The position numbers and the translations under genes are program-made. A stretch of 64,000 nt of DNA, taken from assembly GCF_021083645.1 (NCBI RefSeq), contig NZ_JAJNRQ010000002.1, forward strand, positions 372,001 to 436,000. Direction: 5' to 3'. The stretch comes from Schaalia sp. lx-260. GTDB taxonomy: Bacteria > Actinomycetota > Actinomycetes > Actinomycetales > Actinomycetaceae. The notes under the pieces were generated by a model. The model had not been told where the DNA came from. It saw only the letters and a program-made list of their open reading frames with translations, and made no database searches. Numbering within the stretch: position 1 is the first letter of the stretch; every line of letters starts with the position of its first letter. Shown here one piece after another: positions 31,019-39,452 of the stretch.

Positions 31019-31774
31019 TTAGCAGTAACACGCAACCGGACCGCTCGGCCCCTCAATGACACGAATCGGTGTTTCAAAAATATCGCTCAAAACTTCGTCG
31101 CGCATAATCTGTGCAGGAGTGCCCATATAGGCCACTTCCCCATTTTTCATTGCGCAAATCTGGTCAGCAAAACTCGCAGCAAAATTAATGTCATGAAGGA
31201 CAAGCACAATTGTCCTCCCAAATTCAACACAGGCTCGTGCCAGATGACGCATCATATCCACACAACGAGCGATATCAAGATTATTCAGTGGCTCATCTAA
31301 GAGCACATATTCAGTTTCTTGACATAAAACCATTGCAACATATGCGCGCTGACGCTGTCCACCTGATAATTCATCAAGATAGCGCCCTTCAAGATCGCTC
31401 ATACCAAGGAAATCAATGCTGCGTGAAATAATCGCTTCATCTGCCTCACTGAGACGACCATGCGAATACGGAAAACGCCCAAAACCAACCAACTGACGCA
31501 CAGTAAGTCTAGATACGAAATGATTTTCTTGACGCAAAATAGAAAGTATTCGTGCAAGATCCGCTGATTTTGTTGTTGTCACATCCATGCCAGCAACTTC
31601 AATGACCCCCTCATCGACACCTAAAAGGCGCCCAATCATTGTGAGTAGCGTTGATTTACCTGCACCATTTGGACCAACGAGAGCAGTAATACCACCTCGT
31701 GGAATATCAAGAGTGACAGGACCAATACGCACTGTATCGGAGTAGTTCTTTACTACATCACGAAGAGTAATCAC
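31019..31774 (-). CDS. Iron-siderophore ABC importer, ATP-binding protein
   Basis: 251 residues: Walker A GPNGAGKST, Q-loop LRQENHF, signature LSGGQRQRA, Walker B YVLLDEPLNNLD and H-loop VLHDINFA. The 'HDI/LNxA' ending and the partners place it in the FecE/CeuD class that powers ferric-siderophore import. It is the last gene of a four-gene operon and overlaps the permease by 4 bases (ATGA). It lies immediately downstream of, and convergent with, tRNA-Arg. Confidence 0.93.
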   Translation of the reverse strand: MITLRDVVKNYSDTVRIGPVTLDIPRGGITALVGPNGAGKSTLLTMIGRLLGVDEGVIEVAGMDVTTTKSADLARILSILRQENHFVSRLTVRQLVGFGRFPYSHGRLSEADEAIISRSIDFLGMSDLEGRYLDELSGGQRQRAYVAMVLCQETEYVLLDEPLNNLDIARCVDMMRHLARACVEFGRTIVLVLHDINFAASFADQICAMKNGEVAYMGTPAQIMRDEVLSDIFETPIRVIEGPSGPVACYC

Positions 31775-32805
31775 AATCGTCCTTTCTTGAGAATCACAAT
31801 AATAAACGTGAGGCCACCAATAAATTCAATAATGAGCGAAACAACGCCTTGCGCATTAAAGATGTGATTCATAATGAAATAGGCGCTTGTCAGGACAACA
31901 ACACCTAAAGCAATAGCCATAGCAAAAAGCCGTCGGTGATCAAAAGTTCCAGAAAACTGGTAGGTCAAAGTTGCCACCATGAAACCTAAGAAAGTCATGG
32001 GGCCAACTAACGCAGTTGAGGTAGCCATTAGTACTGATACGAGAATAAGCACAAGGATGCTGGTCTTACGATGATTCACGCCAAGAGTAATTGCCATTTC
32101 ACGTCCTAAAGACATGATATTGAGGCGAGGTGACAACAAGAAAAGGCCCCCAGCGCATATTAAAACCAGCGTAATGGCAATGGGATAGTATTCGTCGCTT
32201 GCATTATTGACTGAACCGAAAAGACGAGCCGTCAGTACATCAAATTCACTTGGGGTGAGCAAACGCTGCATAAGGGTTGATATAGAACCTAGACCTGCGC
32301 CTATGACAACCCCAAGCAGCAACATTGCGTGTAGGGTCGCGTATTTGCTGGTAAGTAACCACGAATAGAGCAACAAACACATAGCCACCATCAGTATGAG
32401 GGTTCCCACGAATGTTTCATGTGTGCGGGCAGCAACTAGGCCGCTCACGCCAAGGAAAAAGATAGTGGATGTGTGGATTGCTCGGTATAGGGACTCAAAT
32501 CCAAGGATTGAGGGGGTGATAATCCGATTGGCTGCAACTGTTTGGAAAGCGATGGTGGCCATTGCCTGAGATACAGCAACAATGAGCATAGCAATAACAG
32601 CACTGCTCCGTCGTTGAACGATAAGCCAAAACGCACGCGTCCCTGGCTCTACTGGATTTGCCCACATCAGCAAAGCTAGGCACATAATGAATCCGAGTAG
32701 GCACATGGCGATAAAAAGAATCCACCAGCGTCTGTGTGCTTTTCGCGTAGGAAAAGCCTGTGAGCGCACATGTGTTGGATGTTTTTTAACGTCACATGTT
32801 TTCAT
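31771..32805 (-). CDS. Iron-siderophore ABC importer, permease 2 (FecCD family)
   Basis: 344 residues, about nine to ten TM helices. FecCD features include RSSAVIAMLIVAVSQAMATIAFQ near the N-terminal third, LGVNHRKTSILVL (the ATPase-contacting loop) and VGPMTFLGFMVATL. It starts as ATGA within the stop of permease 1 and ends overlapping the ATPase. The two FecCD proteins probably form a heterodimeric channel, as in CeuBC or FatCD. The substrate class is ferric siderophore, without finer detail. Confidence 0.92.
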   Translation of the reverse strand: MKTCDVKKHPTHVRSQAFPTRKAHRRWWILFIAMCLLGFIMCLALLMWANPVEPGTRAFWLIVQRRSSAVIAMLIVAVSQAMATIAFQTVAANRIITPSILGFESLYRAIHTSTIFFLGVSGLVAARTHETFVGTLILMVAMCLLLYSWLLTSKYATLHAMLLLGVVIGAGLGSISTLMQRLLTPSEFDVLTARLFGSVNNASDEYYPIAITLVLICAGGLFLLSPRLNIMSLGREMAITLGVNHRKTSILVLILVSVLMATSTALVGPMTFLGFMVATLTYQFSGTFDHRRLFAMAIALGVVVLTSAYFIMNHIFNAQGVVSLIIEFIGGLTFIIVILKKGRL

Positions 32806-33863
32806 AGGCTGTTCTTTCGTGAGCGCATGATGACAAGTACGATAAATACGCTCGCACCAAGGATCCCTAAAATCACAGATACAGGGATTTCAAAGGGAGA
32901 AATAATTATTCGCGCTAGTAGGTCACACACGGTCACCAAACCAATTCCCATCACAACAACCCACGGCAGGTTGGAACGCAGGTCATCGCCTCGCACCATG
33001 GACACAATGTTGGGAACAATCAATCCTAAAAACGGTAAAGAACCAACAACAACTGTGACAACGCCCGTTGCCATAGCAACAAGTCCTGTGGCGATAAGAA
33101 CCATTCGTCGGTAATTCACACCTATGCTAGTTGCTACATCTTCCCCTAAACCAACAGCGGTTAAACGATCAGCGAGAAGGAAAACAATGGCGACAACTCC
33201 CGCCACAATCCAGAGGACTTCATATTGACCGGTGTAGACAGATGTAAAAGAACCTTGAAACCAGATTCCTAAAGATTGCAGCATATTTGCTTGTAGGGCA
33301 ATGAATGTTGATACTGCTGATACAACAGAACCGAGCATAATGCCAAGGATTGGTACAAGCAGCGAAGAACGTAATGATACGCGGTTCAAAAGTAGAAAGA
33401 AAACCATTGTTCCCACAAATGCTGCGCATACCGCACCTGTCATACGTGTAAGAACGGAAGCTCCCGGAAAGATTGCCATAACAAGCAGCAAACCTAAGCC
33501 TGCCCATTCGGTTGTCCCTGTTGTTGTCGGTTCTGCAAAACGATTTTGTGTAATGAGTTGCATGACTAAACCGGACATCGACATGGCTGCACCGGAAAGA
33601 ATCAGTGCAATTGTCCGAGGAATACGCACATCAAAGAACATGCGGCTACCTTCAGAACCGGTAAGTATGGAGTATTCACCTGTCGCAAGGCTAATCAAAA
33701 GCAGGGTAAGTACAGCAAATGTTGCTATGAGTAGTCCCACTGTTAATCTGCGCGTGCGACCTCTTTCAGGGGCAGGTGTTTCTTCAGAAAATTGTGCAGG
33801 GCAAGGCTCCAAACCCTGTGTTAGCGATTCCGAGCCTGTACCGTTAGAGTGTGTTTTCAACAC
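32802..33863 (-). CDS. Iron-siderophore ABC importer, permease 1 (FecCD family)
   Basis: 353 residues. A polar N-terminal tail of about 35 residues precedes the first TM helix. FecCD motifs are VRIPRTIALILSGAAMSMSGLVMQ, IGVNYRRMVLIATGLVAMATG and VGSLPFLGLIVPNIV. It follows the binding-protein gene by 12 bp and overlaps permease 2 by 4 bp. Confidence 0.92.
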   Translation of the reverse strand: MLKTHSNGTGSESLTQGLEPCPAQFSEETPAPERGRTRRLTVGLLIATFAVLTLLLISLATGEYSILTGSEGSRMFFDVRIPRTIALILSGAAMSMSGLVMQLITQNRFAEPTTTGTTEWAGLGLLLVMAIFPGASVLTRMTGAVCAAFVGTMVFFLLLNRVSLRSSLLVPILGIMLGSVVSAVSTFIALQANMLQSLGIWFQGSFTSVYTGQYEVLWIVAGVVAIVFLLADRLTAVGLGEDVATSIGVNYRRMVLIATGLVAMATGVVTVVVGSLPFLGLIVPNIVSMVRGDDLRSNLPWVVVMGIGLVTVCDLLARIIISPFEIPVSVILGILGASVFIVLVIMRSRKNSL

Positions 33864-33875
33864 CGCAGTAGCACC

Positions 33876-34886
33876 TTAGGAATGGGCTGCCTCGAATGCC
33901 TCAGCTATGTTATTGAGGATTTCGGTGTAGGTGATAATTGATTCATTGGTGTAGGTGTCAGAAGGTGCGACAACAAGGCGTTTGTGAGCAACCGCGTCGA
34001 TTCCTGACAGTGCTGGATTATGTGCAATGACATCAGCTGCAGGTGTATATCCAGCTTTGTCGGCGGCTATAGCACCATCACGGTCGAGGACGAAAATCCA
34101 TGCAGGATTGGATTCTGCAATGGCTTCCACTGAAATATCGTCGCCTGTGTGTGAGTGTGTTCCTTCAGGAACTTCAAGTGCAGGTTTGAGGCCAAGTAGG
34201 TCAAAGAGTGGCCCCCAGGTGCGACCAACTGAAGGTGCGACATAGCCGATTTCACCGCCAGAAACATTGACTGCCATGACCGTGGATTTTCCATCATATG
34301 CTTTCTTTGCACGTTCAATTGCGGCAGTGAAGTTATCAATGAGTTCTTTTGCTTCAGCTTCTTTGCTAAAGATTTTTCCGAGGTTTTCGACTTGACGGAT
34401 TATTTCTTTATCCAATGGCTGATTTTCGCGTGGTTCAAAGTCAATGACAGGCGCATCAGTTAAAGAAGCAATGTCTTTATTGTGCTGGCTGAAGCGTTGT
34501 CCGGAGATAATCAGATCAGGCTGAGCTGCGACTAAGGCTTCAAGATTAGGTTCACGATGGGTTCCCACATTTGCTACATCGGGTCCCGAGTAGGCGGTAA
34601 TCGTTGAGGGAATGAGATTTTGAGGTGCGGCTACCAGTGGGATTCCCCATGCAGCCAAGACTTCAAAAGTGCGATTATCAAGGGAAGCTGCACGTTTAAT
34701 TGGCAATGTGAGTGTGGCTGTTCCAAGGTTAGATTCGATGGTGAAGGAAGTGGGTGCTGCGCTTTGAGCCATGCTATCCGCGGCACTTTGTGATTGCGAA
34801 GATGCGGAGCTTCCAGTGTTTCCTGAGCAGCCACTCAGGAGGAGTGCAGCGGTAGCTGTTGTCGCCATGATCCGAGTGATTTTCAC
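33876..34886 (-). CDS. Iron-siderophore-binding lipoprotein
   Basis: 336 residues. The lipoprotein signal ends LLLSGC (Cys20), followed by a Ser/Gln-rich linker and a PeripBP/FepB fold (RTFEVLAAWGIPLVAAP, LEALVAAQPDLIISGQRF, AYDGKSTVMAVNVSGGEIGYV). It is related to CeuE/FatB, which bind catecholate or similar ferric siderophores. The GTG at 34886 is the likely start (AAGGA 12 bases upstream); ATG 34868 is an alternative. It heads the iron operon, directly behind an IdeR/DtxR-like box. Confidence 0.92.
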   Translation of the reverse strand: MKITRIMATTATAALLLSGCSGNTGSSASSQSQSAADSMAQSAAPTSFTIESNLGTATLTLPIKRAASLDNRTFEVLAAWGIPLVAAPQNLIPSTITAYSGPDVANVGTHREPNLEALVAAQPDLIISGQRFSQHNKDIASLTDAPVIDFEPRENQPLDKEIIRQVENLGKIFSKEAEAKELIDNFTAAIERAKKAYDGKSTVMAVNVSGGEIGYVAPSVGRTWGPLFDLLGLKPALEVPEGTHSHTGDDISVEAIAESNPAWIFVLDRDGAIAADKAGYTPAADVIAHNPALSGIDAVAHKRLVVAPSDTYTNESIITYTEILNNIAEAFEAAHS

Positions 34887-35219: not shown

Positions 35220-36266
35220 TTATTCCACATACATATTTGTCACTGCAAGATCCACATGAACAGCCCCTGACAAAATATCTGGAATCTCGGCGAAAAAATC
35301 TCCCATACGCTGCCATAATTCCATATCTTGCTTCAATGACACAGAGCCATCGTCACCCATAAAAAGCGGAAGAGTAGCCGCTAAAACCTCACGAGCCGTC
35401 TGCAAGCCTTCACTACTTAAAGACGGATCTTGACGCTGAGTTGCCTCAATACCTTCTTCAGGATGGGTCATCACCTGCTGTATCCCTTGTCGCGTTCCAT
35501 TCAGCACCGCACGCACAAGATCAGGATGAGCACGCGCCCACGCACTTGTCGTCACCAAAGAAGCTGAAACTAATGGGATACGCGCAAAATCCACAGGTAA
35601 CTCGCGCACATTCATACCGGAACGTTGCATAAAAACTTTGTCATTATTAGAAAAACCAACAACAAGATCCACCTGACCTTGAGCAAGGGCAGATTGCTGC
35701 GTATAACCAATCGGAATGATTTCCACATCCTGACGAGTCAAACCAACATCTGCAAGTACTGCCAACAATGCAAACCAGTTTGAACCATATTCACCGGGAA
35801 TACCTATGCGCTTACCTGCAATATCACGCAGATCGTGAAGCTGTGATTCTTCGGGCACAATAAAAGCCACCGGTGAACGCCTGTAGTAGGTCCCCACCGA
35901 CACAAGATCCATTCCAGCTTCACGCGCTTGCAAAACCTCATCTCCTGAAGCCAGAACCATATCTTCATGACCCGACACAAGAGCCGTAAAAAGCCCTTCC
36001 TCCGCCCCGTGATGCCGAAGCTTCACATGAGCACCTGCATTCATATAAGCCTGACTATCAGCAGCAACATACACTGGCGAAAACTGCACATTTGGCACAT
36101 AAGTCAACCCTAAAATCACATCTTTACCTGAAGGCGTGGCAGCGGGCTTCACATGCTGAGTACCAGATTCCGCAGAAGGCACCCCCCCTGCGCACGCTGT
36201 GACAGCAAGAAGAATCACCCCTACAAGAAAAGCAGATAAAGCGTAATGGATAGAGTGTTTTTTCAT
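35220..36266 (-). CDS. ribY: NMT1/THI5-like substrate-binding lipoprotein, probable flavin importer (RibY-like)
   Basis: 348 residues. The lipoprotein signal ends LAVTAC (Cys25), followed by an NMT1/THI5 periplasmic-binding fold: LGLTYVPNVQFSPVYVAAD, VSGHEDMVLASGDEVLQAR, GKRIGIPGEYGSNWFALLA and VVGFSNNDKVF. This fold normally binds thiamine pyrimidines. However, the operon is preceded by an FMN riboswitch, and RibXY importers with an NMT1-type binding protein are known to carry riboflavin, so flavin is the better guess. It overlaps the permease gene by 4 bases (ATGA). The symbol is assigned by context. Confidence 0.75.
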   Translation of the reverse strand: MKKHSIHYALSAFLVGVILLAVTACAGGVPSAESGTQHVKPAATPSGKDVILGLTYVPNVQFSPVYVAADSQAYMNAGAHVKLRHHGAEEGLFTALVSGHEDMVLASGDEVLQAREAGMDLVSVGTYYRRSPVAFIVPEESQLHDLRDIAGKRIGIPGEYGSNWFALLAVLADVGLTRQDVEIIPIGYTQQSALAQGQVDLVVGFSNNDKVFMQRSGMNVRELPVDFARIPLVSASLVTTSAWARAHPDLVRAVLNGTRQGIQQVMTHPEEGIEATQRQDPSLSSEGLQTAREVLAATLPLFMGDDGSVSLKQDMELWQRMGDFFAEIPDILSGAVHVDLAVTNMYVE

Positions 36267-37054
36267 TGTGAACCCATCGAATAAGAAAGCGCATCACGCC
36301 TATAGCGATGTTCAATGCGATGCACGGTAACGTAAATTACTGTTGCCATTGCGCAGAGCAGGAAAATCGTCACAAAAAGAGAGGCTGTATCTACATTTGT
36401 ACGCGCTTGAACAAGAACCTGTCCAAGACCTGTCCCACCCATCACCATTTCACCGACAACAGCTCCGGTAACAGATAAGGTGAAGCCGTTACGTAGACCC
36501 GCCAAAATAGCAGGAGCTGCAAGAGGCGCTTCCATTGTCCACAATAATGTCCATCCAGAAGCACCATCAAGTTCAGCAGCTTCTAATACCTGCGGATCAA
36601 TATGACGGAGCCCTAAAACTGTGGATACAAGAATTGGGAAAAAAACCATCAAGGCACAAAGCGCAGAAATAGCCCATACCCCATAGCCCAACCAGAGAAC
36701 CAGAAGTGGTGCCACAGCGATCGCTGGTAAAGCCTGTGTAGCCCCCAAAAAAGGCTCAACTGCGGCAGCTAATACGACAGAACGATAAATCATCCAGCTC
36801 AGCGGTAAAGCACATACAGCACCTAAAACAGCACCGAGTATAGCTTCATACGCAGTGACTCCTACACGCTGCCATAGCCACAGGTGAGTGAGCATATCCG
36901 TTCCACGTACAAAAACTTGATGAGGCGAAGGTAAACGCCACGCTTCCACACCGGAAAAATAAGTAAAAAACCACCATGCAGCAAGCACAAGAAACACAAA
37001 AATAACAGGAGCTAGCACCAGCGTTATCTTGTTCCTTGTACGGTAACGCGCCAC
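36263..37054 (-). CDS. ribX: ABC permease, probable flavin importer (RibX-like)
   Basis: 263 residues with six TM helices and the binding-protein-dependent EAA loop (EAAELDGASGWTLLWTMEAPLA), of the SsuC/ThiX permease family. The GTG start at 37054 has AAAGGAA about 7 bases upstream. It is the first gene behind the FMN riboswitch and is followed by the binding protein. No ATPase gene is in the operon, so it must share one encoded elsewhere. Flavin specificity rests on the riboswitch. Confidence 0.78.
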   Translation of the reverse strand: MARYRTRNKITLVLAPVIFVFLVLAAWWFFTYFSGVEAWRLPSPHQVFVRGTDMLTHLWLWQRVGVTAYEAILGAVLGAVCALPLSWMIYRSVVLAAAVEPFLGATQALPAIAVAPLLVLWLGYGVWAISALCALMVFFPILVSTVLGLRHIDPQVLEAAELDGASGWTLLWTMEAPLAAPAILAGLRNGFTLSVTGAVVGEMVMGGTGLGQVLVQARTNVDTASLFVTIFLLCAMATVIYVTVHRIEHRYRRDALSYSMGSQ

Positions 37055-37125
37055 CGTCGGTTCCTTTCCGGCATACGGGGCGCACGTATCGGACTACACG
37101 CACATACAGGCACATGTAGCCCTGC

Positions 37126-37241
37126 GTACTCCTCCCATCCGGACTTTCACCGTCGGTGTCGGAATTTCACCGACTCAGCCACCATGTAGGCGGGTCGCGG
37201 ACTTTCACCGCCGGCTCGGATTTTCACCGACCCCGAAGCAC
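37126..37241 (-). ncRNA. FMN riboswitch (RFN element)
   Basis: Read on the minus strand, all conserved RFN blocks are present in order: GGGGTCGGTGAAAATCC, GCCGGCGGTGAAAGTCCGC, GACCC, a variable hairpin, TCGGTGAAATTCCGAC, ACCGACGGTGAAAGTCCGG, and ATGGGAGGAG. Closing helix P1 forms between GTGCTTC and GGAGTAC. The first gene starts about 70 bases downstream. Between them GGGCTACA and TGTAGTCC (37115-37122 with 37091-37098) can pair and may belong to the expression platform. FMN should switch off expression of the importer. Confidence 0.95.
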
Positions 37242-37310
37242 CCTGCTATTGTGCCATGTTCTGTACGAATATGCGCACGAAAGAATCAGGCACACACCTA
37301 CTTGAAACGC

Positions 37311-37976
37311 TCAGTGACAGTGCTGAGAAGCCAATTCGCGCAAAACCTCAATTTCCGCATACGCGTCTTCTGCGTTAAATACCGCTGAACCTGCAACGAA
37401 ATTATCAGCACCCGCTTGCGCAGCCATTTCAATGGTTTTACGTGAAATTCCACCATCTACTTGAATACTCACAGGTAATTCAGCACTGCGAATAGCTTCT
37501 CGTGTACGACGTACTTTCGGCATCATCGACTCAATAAATGATTGACCACCGAAACCCGGCTCCACCGTCATAATGAGGATCATGTCAAATTCATGCAAAA
37601 TATCAACGAAAGGCGCAATATCCGTTGCCGGTCGCAAAGCTAAACCCGCGCGAGCACCTAAATGCCGCAACTCACGCGCTAAACGCACAGGAGCTGTTAC
37701 CGCTTCAGCGTGAAAAGTAACAGAAGCACAACCAGCTTCAGCATATCCTGGGGCCCAACGGTCAGGATCCTCAATCATCAAATGCGCATCCACTGGCAAA
37801 ATATTTGCCTGTATCGTTGCTTCAACGATTGGTAATCCCCACGATAAATTTGGAACAAAATGATTATCCATCACATCCACATGAACAAGGTCAGCATGTG
37901 CAATTCGTTCAAGTGATCCACGTAGATCACCAATATCACAGTTCAAAATTGACGGAGAAATAGTGCTATGAGTCAT
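37311..37976 (-). CDS. rpe: Ribulose-phosphate 3-epimerase
   Basis: 221 residues, TIM barrel. Signatures: ISPSILNCDIGDL, HVDVMDNHFVPNLSWG (metal/catalytic Asp and His), VDAHLMIEDPDRW, MTVEPGFGGQSFI and QVDGGISRKTIE. It interconverts ribulose-5-P and xylulose-5-P in the pentose phosphate pathway. It is 18 bp after rsmB in the conserved fmt-rsmB-rpe series. Confidence 0.96.
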   Translation of the reverse strand: MTHSTISPSILNCDIGDLRGSLERIAHADLVHVDVMDNHFVPNLSWGLPIVEATIQANILPVDAHLMIEDPDRWAPGYAEAGCASVTFHAEAVTAPVRLARELRHLGARAGLALRPATDIAPFVDILHEFDMILIMTVEPGFGGQSFIESMMPKVRRTREAIRSAELPVSIQVDGGISRKTIEMAAQAGADNFVAGSAVFNAEDAYAEIEVLRELASQHCH

Positions 37977-37994: not shown

Positions 37995-39452
37995 TCAGAG
38001 CTTCCGTAAAGCGGCAATGTACATCAAATCTGTGTCATGACGATGAACCCATAATTGGATACCTTGCGGCCGTGATTCTCCCTCAGAAATTCCCGCAATC
38101 GGATGAGATGAATACTGATGAGCAATCGCAGCAGTATCCAATAACTCGACCTTTCCCTCAGCAACAAGTGCATGCACCTGCTGCACAGTCTCAGCAACAT
38201 GCGGTGAACAAGTCACATATGTCAAAACACCGCCTGAACGTAATAATTGCACAGCCCGACCTAGCAAAGCACTTTGCAAGTCCACAAGCTCAGCCACGTC
38301 GCTTTCTTGCCGCCTCCACCGTGACTCTGGTCGTCGCCTCATAGATCCCATACCAGAACATGGAGCATCTACCAGAACACGATCAAAGAAACCGAAGGGC
38401 CATGCTGTTGCTGGGCCTCCTAAAGTACGCCCATCTGCGCAAAGCACATTCACATTATCAAGAGCACGAGTAGCACGCTCCACTAAACGCGCACGATGAG
38501 GATGGACTTCATTTGCTACCACCTGTGCGCCACGCTTTGCACCCAGAGCAGCCAGAAGCGCTGTTTTACCTCCTGGCCCTGCACATAAGTCCAGCCAACG
38601 CTGATCGGAACCTATGACAGGTGCTTGAGCTGCAATAATAGCAGCCAATTGGCTACCCTCATCTTGCGCTCCTGCATGTGCAGAACGAATTGACGGTAAA
38701 CGAGCAGGATCCCCGTTCTCAATAAAAACTGCGTATGGGCTTAAATCGCCTAATGCCACACGAGTACGTAAGTAATCTTCGGCTTCATCAGCAAGATCTT
38801 CTGTTTCAATAAGCCCTGGACGTGCAACCAAGGTCACGATCGGCGCTTCATTGTCAGCAGCTAAAAGATCCCTTAGCTCATGCGCCGCACCACTATGAAT
38901 TTCAAGTGCTCGACGAAATTCTTTTACCATCCATTGCGGATGTGAGTACTCAATGGCAAGGCGTTCATCTTCATCAATGATATTTTCGAGGACAACTGCA
39001 CGTTCTTCTGGGCTTTGCCGTGTAAGAGAACGAAGAACCGCATTACAAAATTTTGCTGGCCCATCAGTACTCACTTCGCGGGCAAGATCCACGCTTGTTG
39101 CAACCGCCGCATGTTCTGGCACACGCATATACAGCAACTGATACGCGCCCATACGTAAGAGATCAACAACAGCGGAGTCTACAGCGCTCAACGCCCGATT
39201 CATATGCTGTTCGAGAACCCAATCAAGGTAGCCGCGAGTACGCAGTGTTCCGTACACAAGTTCCGAGGTAAAAGCCGCATCACGCCCATCAAAGCCAGCC
39301 TCATGCTGGGCTTCACGCAGGGCTTGAGGAAGCACAATATTTGCGTATGCTCCCTGCTCATGTACCTGTCGTATCACTTCATAAGCAATGCGACGCGGCC
39401 GATCAACTAATTGGCGAGGACGATAACCCTGTGAATAAGGCCGTGTGGACAT
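37995..39452 (-). CDS. rsmB: 16S rRNA m5C967 methyltransferase RsmB
   Basis: 485 residues. The N-terminal NusB-like RNA-binding domain (about 15-150, RIAYEVIRQVHEQGAYANIVLP) is followed by a SAM-dependent methyltransferase domain with LDLCAGPGGKTALL, VDAPCSGMGSMRRRPE (one active-site Cys) and TYVTCSPHVAE (catalytic Cys). It methylates a cytosine in small-subunit rRNA. It starts 2 bp after fmt ends. Confidence 0.94.
   Translation of the reverse strand: MSTRPYSQGYRPRQLVDRPRRIAYEVIRQVHEQGAYANIVLPQALREAQHEAGFDGRDAAFTSELVYGTLRTRGYLDWVLEQHMNRALSAVDSAVVDLLRMGAYQLLYMRVPEHAAVATSVDLAREVSTDGPAKFCNAVLRSLTRQSPEERAVVLENIIDEDERLAIEYSHPQWMVKEFRRALEIHSGAAHELRDLLAADNEAPIVTLVARPGLIETEDLADEAEDYLRTRVALGDLSPYAVFIENGDPARLPSIRSAHAGAQDEGSQLAAIIAAQAPVIGSDQRWLDLCAGPGGKTALLAALGAKRGAQVVANEVHPHRARLVERATRALDNVNVLCADGRTLGGPATAWPFGFFDRVLVDAPCSGMGSMRRRPESRWRRQESDVAELVDLQSALLGRAVQLLRSGGVLTYVTCSPHVAETVQQVHALVAEGKVELLDTAAIAHQYSSHPIAGISEGESRPQGIQLWVHRHDTDLMYIAALRKL

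Follow-up and report, generated by a model that had tools for sequence, protein, structure and literature searches.

The window, a stretch of 64,000 nucleotides from the genome of Schaalia sp. lx-260, was scanned in full for structured RNAs, and an FMN riboswitch aptamer was found on the minus strand at positions 37123-37244. This match to RF00050 is full length, with a score of 93.8 bits (cut-off, 66.2) and an E-value of 2.7e-20. A leader at 37055-37122 (minus strand), carrying a GAAAGG that resembles a Shine-Dalgarno sequence (about 37063-37068), runs from the aptamer to the start of ribX, and folding of this leader predicts a stem that takes in the GTG start. ribX (36263-37054, minus strand) encodes a type I ABC permease of 263 amino acids that resembles SsuC and TauC (BPD_transp_1, E = 7.3e-30). 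ribY (35220-36266, minus strand) encodes a substrate-binding lipoprotein of 348 amino acids with the NMT1/THI5 fold (NMT1, E = 1.9e-36), and reading of the sequence places a lipobox-like VTAC within its first 30 residues. The two genes lie on the same strand as the riboswitch and overlap by 4 bases. Upstream are rpe, encoding ribulose-phosphate 3-epimerase (37311-37976, minus strand), and an rsmB-like rRNA methyltransferase gene (37995-39452, minus strand; the name is inferred from sequence), both of which served as markers of a conserved slot; the product of the latter was used as the tblastn query. The RF00050, BPD_transp_1 and NMT1 matches confirm the earlier note made on this DNA, which had described rpe followed by an FMN riboswitch, a permease and an NMT1/THI5-like lipoprotein. 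Annotation of the open reading frames and domains in the window revealed no ATPase gene in the riboswitch-ribX-ribY operon, as that note had also stated. The next ATPase gene downstream belongs to a separate, siderophore-type importer located directly after ribXY (31019-34886), which comprises a FecB lipoprotein, two FecCD permeases and an ATPase; many relatives have hisG at that place.

Pfam and NCBIfam models assign RibX and RibY to the SsuC/TauC and SsuA/ThiY superfamilies, respectively, at scores far under the named-family cut-offs. RibX reached 68.5 bits with the SsuC model (cut-off, 347), while RibY reached 81.2 bits with SsuA (cut-off, 163.5) and 30.9 bits with TauA (cut-off, 304.25). 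An AlphaFold2 model of RibY (mean pLDDT, 86) is closest among solved structures to 3ix1, which binds N-formyl-aminopyrimidine, and to 4nmy, which binds thiamin (TM of about 0.7 to 0.8). A sequence profile search also puts these two structures nearest to RibY, and no flavin-bound member of this fold was present among the solved structures listed. Since RibY has an NMT1/THI5 domain and the ligands of its nearest solved structures are a thiamine precursor, thiamin or sulfonates, RibY could be part of a ThiY-like thiamine-precursor importer or an SsuA-like sulfonate importer that stands behind a flavin riboswitch by chance. The low SsuA and TauA scores argue against this explanation, as does the window itself, in which the only RNA matches are the FMN riboswitch and tRNAs, with no thiamine riboswitch. 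The neighbors of ribXY are rpe and the FecB-type importer, and no thiamine genes lie beside it. Across 25 RibY sequences, the invariant positions include GLTY, P58, Q61, F62, R84-H85-H86-G87, D109-E110, T189-Q190 and N207/D209. When RibY was aligned to two thiamine-type binders, the first of these motifs was found to carry T-Y where those proteins carry D-W. This substitution is compatible with a changed ligand, not proof of one, and the RHHG, DE and N-x-D positions common across RibY likewise weigh against a thiamine-type or sulfonate-type protein.

The distribution of these genes bears on the same question. Of 121 genomes from the family Actinomycetaceae, 107 encode RibY-like proteins, called at a score above 180 bits. 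An FMN riboswitch lies upstream of ribY on the same strand in 105 of the 107, at a distance of 801 to 1395 bases; the median of 923 corresponds to ribX plus a leader. The two genomes lacking an upstream riboswitch call are fragmented assemblies. Among named loci, all nine that were checked, from Actinomycetaceae, Propionibacteriaceae and Arsenicicoccus, have an FMN riboswitch preceding ribXY. Lumazine synthase (RibH) is encoded in 31 of the 121 family genomes, 18 with RibY and 13 without, and is missing from 89 of the 107 RibY genomes. Every family genome encodes RibY or RibH save one (G036, 79% complete), in which a piece of ribX follows the riboswitch and the contig then ends. The complementarity of RibY and RibH gave a Fisher P of 2e-8, a statistic that ignores shared ancestry and is read as strong association only. 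Both the nearly constant pairing with the riboswitch and this complementarity count against a chance arrangement, and we regard a thiamine-precursor or sulfonate importer as very unlikely here.

The family contains 139 FMN riboswitches in total, 105 of them before ribY and a further 30 in RibH-encoding genomes. Of the remaining four, three come from fragmented assemblies and the last stands before a solitary riboflavin synthase gene. This last one is the second FMN riboswitch of a RibXY genome in which RibH was not found (G072:C1, about 434.6-435.5 kb; L219:1205-1951), and the gene just behind it may be a relic or may encode a flavin/lumazine-binding protein. RibXY-like genes of 38 to 40% identity are also present at four Streptomyces loci (L179, L184, L185 and L187), where no FMN riboswitch was detected at the gathering cut-off; for this reason, the ligand of the Streptomyces systems may be different. 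The predicted folds of the region between aptamer and ribX vary among relatives. At three loci (L007, L011 and L020) this region holds a CCCCGG/CCGGGG hairpin and, after it, a run of T, which together resemble a terminator; the leader in the window gives no clear sign of this.

The earlier note had left the riboflavin synthesis genes of this genome to be looked up. The assembly comprises 1.93 Mb in 12 contigs and is estimated to be 99.9% complete, so that a small loss in contig gaps is possible. Within it, RibH was not found, profile searches detected neither riboflavin synthase (RibE) nor the RibD C-terminal domain, and a search for a RibBA homologue was likewise negative. RibF (FAD synthetase) is present. 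The same profile searches recovered RibH and RibD in 14/14 widely separated control genomes and riboflavin synthase in 11/14, demonstrating that the searches work. Because RibF converts riboflavin to FMN and FAD and the synthesis enzymes are missing, riboflavin auxotrophy of Schaalia sp. lx-260 is strongly predicted from gene content. With the search terms used, we found no paper on riboflavin auxotrophy in Actinomycetaceae, and the main text of a saturated transposon study of Schaalia odontolytica does not name flavin genes (PMC12369343).

A second explanation is that RibXY is an accessory importer and that riboflavin is still made by a diverged or unassembled pathway. Such coexistence occurs in the family, since RibY and RibH are both encoded in 18 of the 121 genomes and a genome of the same genus (G157) has a full rib operon. 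In Schaalia sp. lx-260, however, all of the synthesis enzymes searched for are missing, as they are from nearly all other genomes of the genus. The genome is nearly complete, its single FMN riboswitch is the one before ribX, and the profiles used recovered their targets in the controls as described above. A hidden pathway is therefore very unlikely.

Comparison of gene order with other families of the same taxonomic order places the importer in a defined position. In Actinomycetaceae the order is rsmB-rpe-FMN riboswitch-ribX-ribY, often with hisG next. Representatives of three other families (G142, G143 and G147) have rsmB-rpe-ribD-ribC-ribBA-ribH-hisG, with a riboswitch detected before ribD in two of the three (G142 and G143). 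Since the rsmB-rpe-...-hisG order is common to both arrangements, ribXY sits where the synthesis operon stands in those three families. This comparison was made within the order; the earlier note had pointed to Mycobacterium and relatives for the usual slot of the riboflavin genes. In the stretches compared from the other six sampled families of the order, no rib operon was found beside rpe. Where rib genes occur in Actinomycetaceae, they lie at other sites or, in G119, past hisG with a separate riboswitch. In G157, a complete ribD-ribC-ribBA-ribH operon lies behind an FMN riboswitch (L099, G157:C17:22000-36000). In a tree of RibD, RibBA and RibH from a small sample, the rib operons of the family do not group together, and G157 pairs with a genome from another family of the order (G149) with a support of 0.96. 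This scattering fits a history in which the synthesis genes were lost in an ancestor and later regained in some lines, a reading that would need to be taken with the small size of the sample in mind.

These data lead us to conclude, with a probability of about 0.9, that the locus encodes a RibXY riboflavin importer that is probably the sole flavin source of the cell. The assignment is a reading of sequence, supported by the riboswitch, the adjacent permease and NMT1-type protein, gene content and synteny. Import in place of synthesis, as the earlier note had proposed, is likewise supported by gene content, regulation and synteny. In the mechanism that we propose, low FMN would lead the riboswitch to permit expression of ribX and ribY. 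RibY, a lipoprotein outside the membrane, would then capture its ligand, which we infer to be riboflavin or a close flavin. RibX would carry the flavin inward, the direction expected of this importer, powered by an ATPase encoded elsewhere, and RibF would convert the imported riboflavin to FMN and FAD. In a genome that lacks the synthesis genes, RibXY is probably the only route by which the cell obtains flavin.

If ribXY is an ABC importer, the need for an unlinked ATPase that the earlier note had pointed out holds, since no linked ATPase gene was found. A motif scan detected no ATPase within 1.5 kb of ribXY in 30 family loci, and a similarity search found no ATPase gene beside ribXY in 80 loci from public genomes with flanks of up to 5 kb. 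Matches over ribX at one locus (L082) stem from the permease portion of a reference protein that is a fusion, and not from an ATPase; the ATPases at another (L148) were rejected as linked motors, being on the other strand and no closer than 2.6 kb. The genome of Schaalia sp. lx-260 yields 62 ATPase-domain matches, among which a lone SsuB/TauB/ThiZ-like ATPase was not found. Three ATPases encoded alongside NMT1-type importers in relatives served as references; the best ATPases of this genome scored 127, 135 and 119 bits against them, whereas the references score 150 to 236 bits among themselves. None of the ten likeliest ATPases of the genome is SsuB-like by curated models. The earlier note's lone SsuB/ThiZ-like ATPase thus gave way to a lone ATPase of the UgpC/MsiK type.

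This UgpC-type ATPase (374 residues, G000:C7:44469-45590) scores 465.7 bits against a curated cut-off of 432 and resembles MsmX (6yir; E = 2.4e-105). It has no permease neighbor, being flanked by kinase, DUF4032 and GDPD genes, and it is found at E <= 1e-80 in 117 of the 121 family genomes, mostly at 67 to 90% identity. It is also the ATPase best conserved (75%) between this genome and a RibXY genome of 1.5 Mb (G030), in which none of the 30 best ATPase matches is SsuB-like. When read by eye against the anchors in PMC7658222, the protein keeps MsmX residues D77 and E110 and not R104 and K154. The same pattern of kept and lost charged residues occurs in a Synechocystis ATPase that complements (PMC7658222). 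The MsiK-type ATPase is present in genomes without RibXY as well and must therefore do other work, so its presence alone gives no tie to RibX. Two RibY genomes of one genus (G040 and G064) have only a weaker MsiK-type homologue. A single genome of the family (G006, 94% complete) has RibH, no RibXY and no strong MsiK-type match.

We tentatively name this orphan MsmX/MsiK-type ATPase as the best candidate for the RibX motor, at somewhat less than even odds. The chances are about even that RibX is instead driven by an ATPase of another type, such as a MetN, FbpC-like or GlnQ-like subunit. Genes for all three types are present in this genome, with orthologues in the small G030 genome, and reports of multitask ATPases to date concern sugar importers only (PMC7658222). 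Against these subunits, MetN and the FbpC-like ATPase adjoin permease-like genes of their own, whereas the MsiK-type ATPase is unlinked and is the one best conserved in G030. A broader proposal, that an MsmX/MsiK-type sugar-importer ATPase also powers RibXY across Actinomycetaceae and ties flavin supply to the sugar-uptake motor, is possible, though we would not favor it at present. If true, the MsiK-RibXY pairing would be new, with a vitamin importer as client of a multitask ATPase, and would open the question of whether such ATPases serve non-sugar importers.

FMN riboswitches led to the prediction of RibXY, which is reported from Actinobacteria whether or not they have synthesis genes (PMC4418817). 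Chloroflexus RibXY rescues an Escherichia coli ribB mutant at low riboflavin, Chloroflexus RibY is cited as flavin binding, and in some Chloroflexi an ATPase gene is linked to RibXY (PMC4418817). RibXY itself is already known, and this locus adds another member; new here are the family-wide count, the comparison of the slot and the missing SsuB-like ATPase. We predict that most Actinomycetaceae, including human oral Schaalia, Actinomyces and Gleimia, take riboflavin from their neighbors or host by way of one importer and that the motor of RibXY is shared. Such dependence would place ribXY and the gene for its ATPase among the candidates for essential genes.

The system of Chloroflexus aurantiacus resembles that described here in having a permease and an NMT1-type protein behind an FMN riboswitch, with no ATPase in the cloned operon. 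It differs in that RibXY of Schaalia sp. lx-260 takes the place of the synthesis operon within a conserved slot and is apparently the only flavin source. In contrast to the Chloroflexi with a linked ATPase gene, the 80 actinobacterial loci have none beside ribXY. ThiXYZ, the N-formyl-aminopyrimidine importer whose ThiY is represented by 3ix1, shares its binding-protein fold and domain with RibY, but the locus here has an FMN rather than a thiamine riboswitch, different binding-motif residues and no ThiZ-like ATPase. SsuABC and TauABC have a permease and a binding protein of the same broad superfamily, yet RibXY falls under the cut-offs of these families and the genome lacks an SsuB/TauB-like ATPase. 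The multitask ATPases MsmX and MsiK are, like the candidate motor, of the UgpC type and unlinked to a permease; their known clients are sugar importers, and the vitamin importer described here is a candidate client of another kind.
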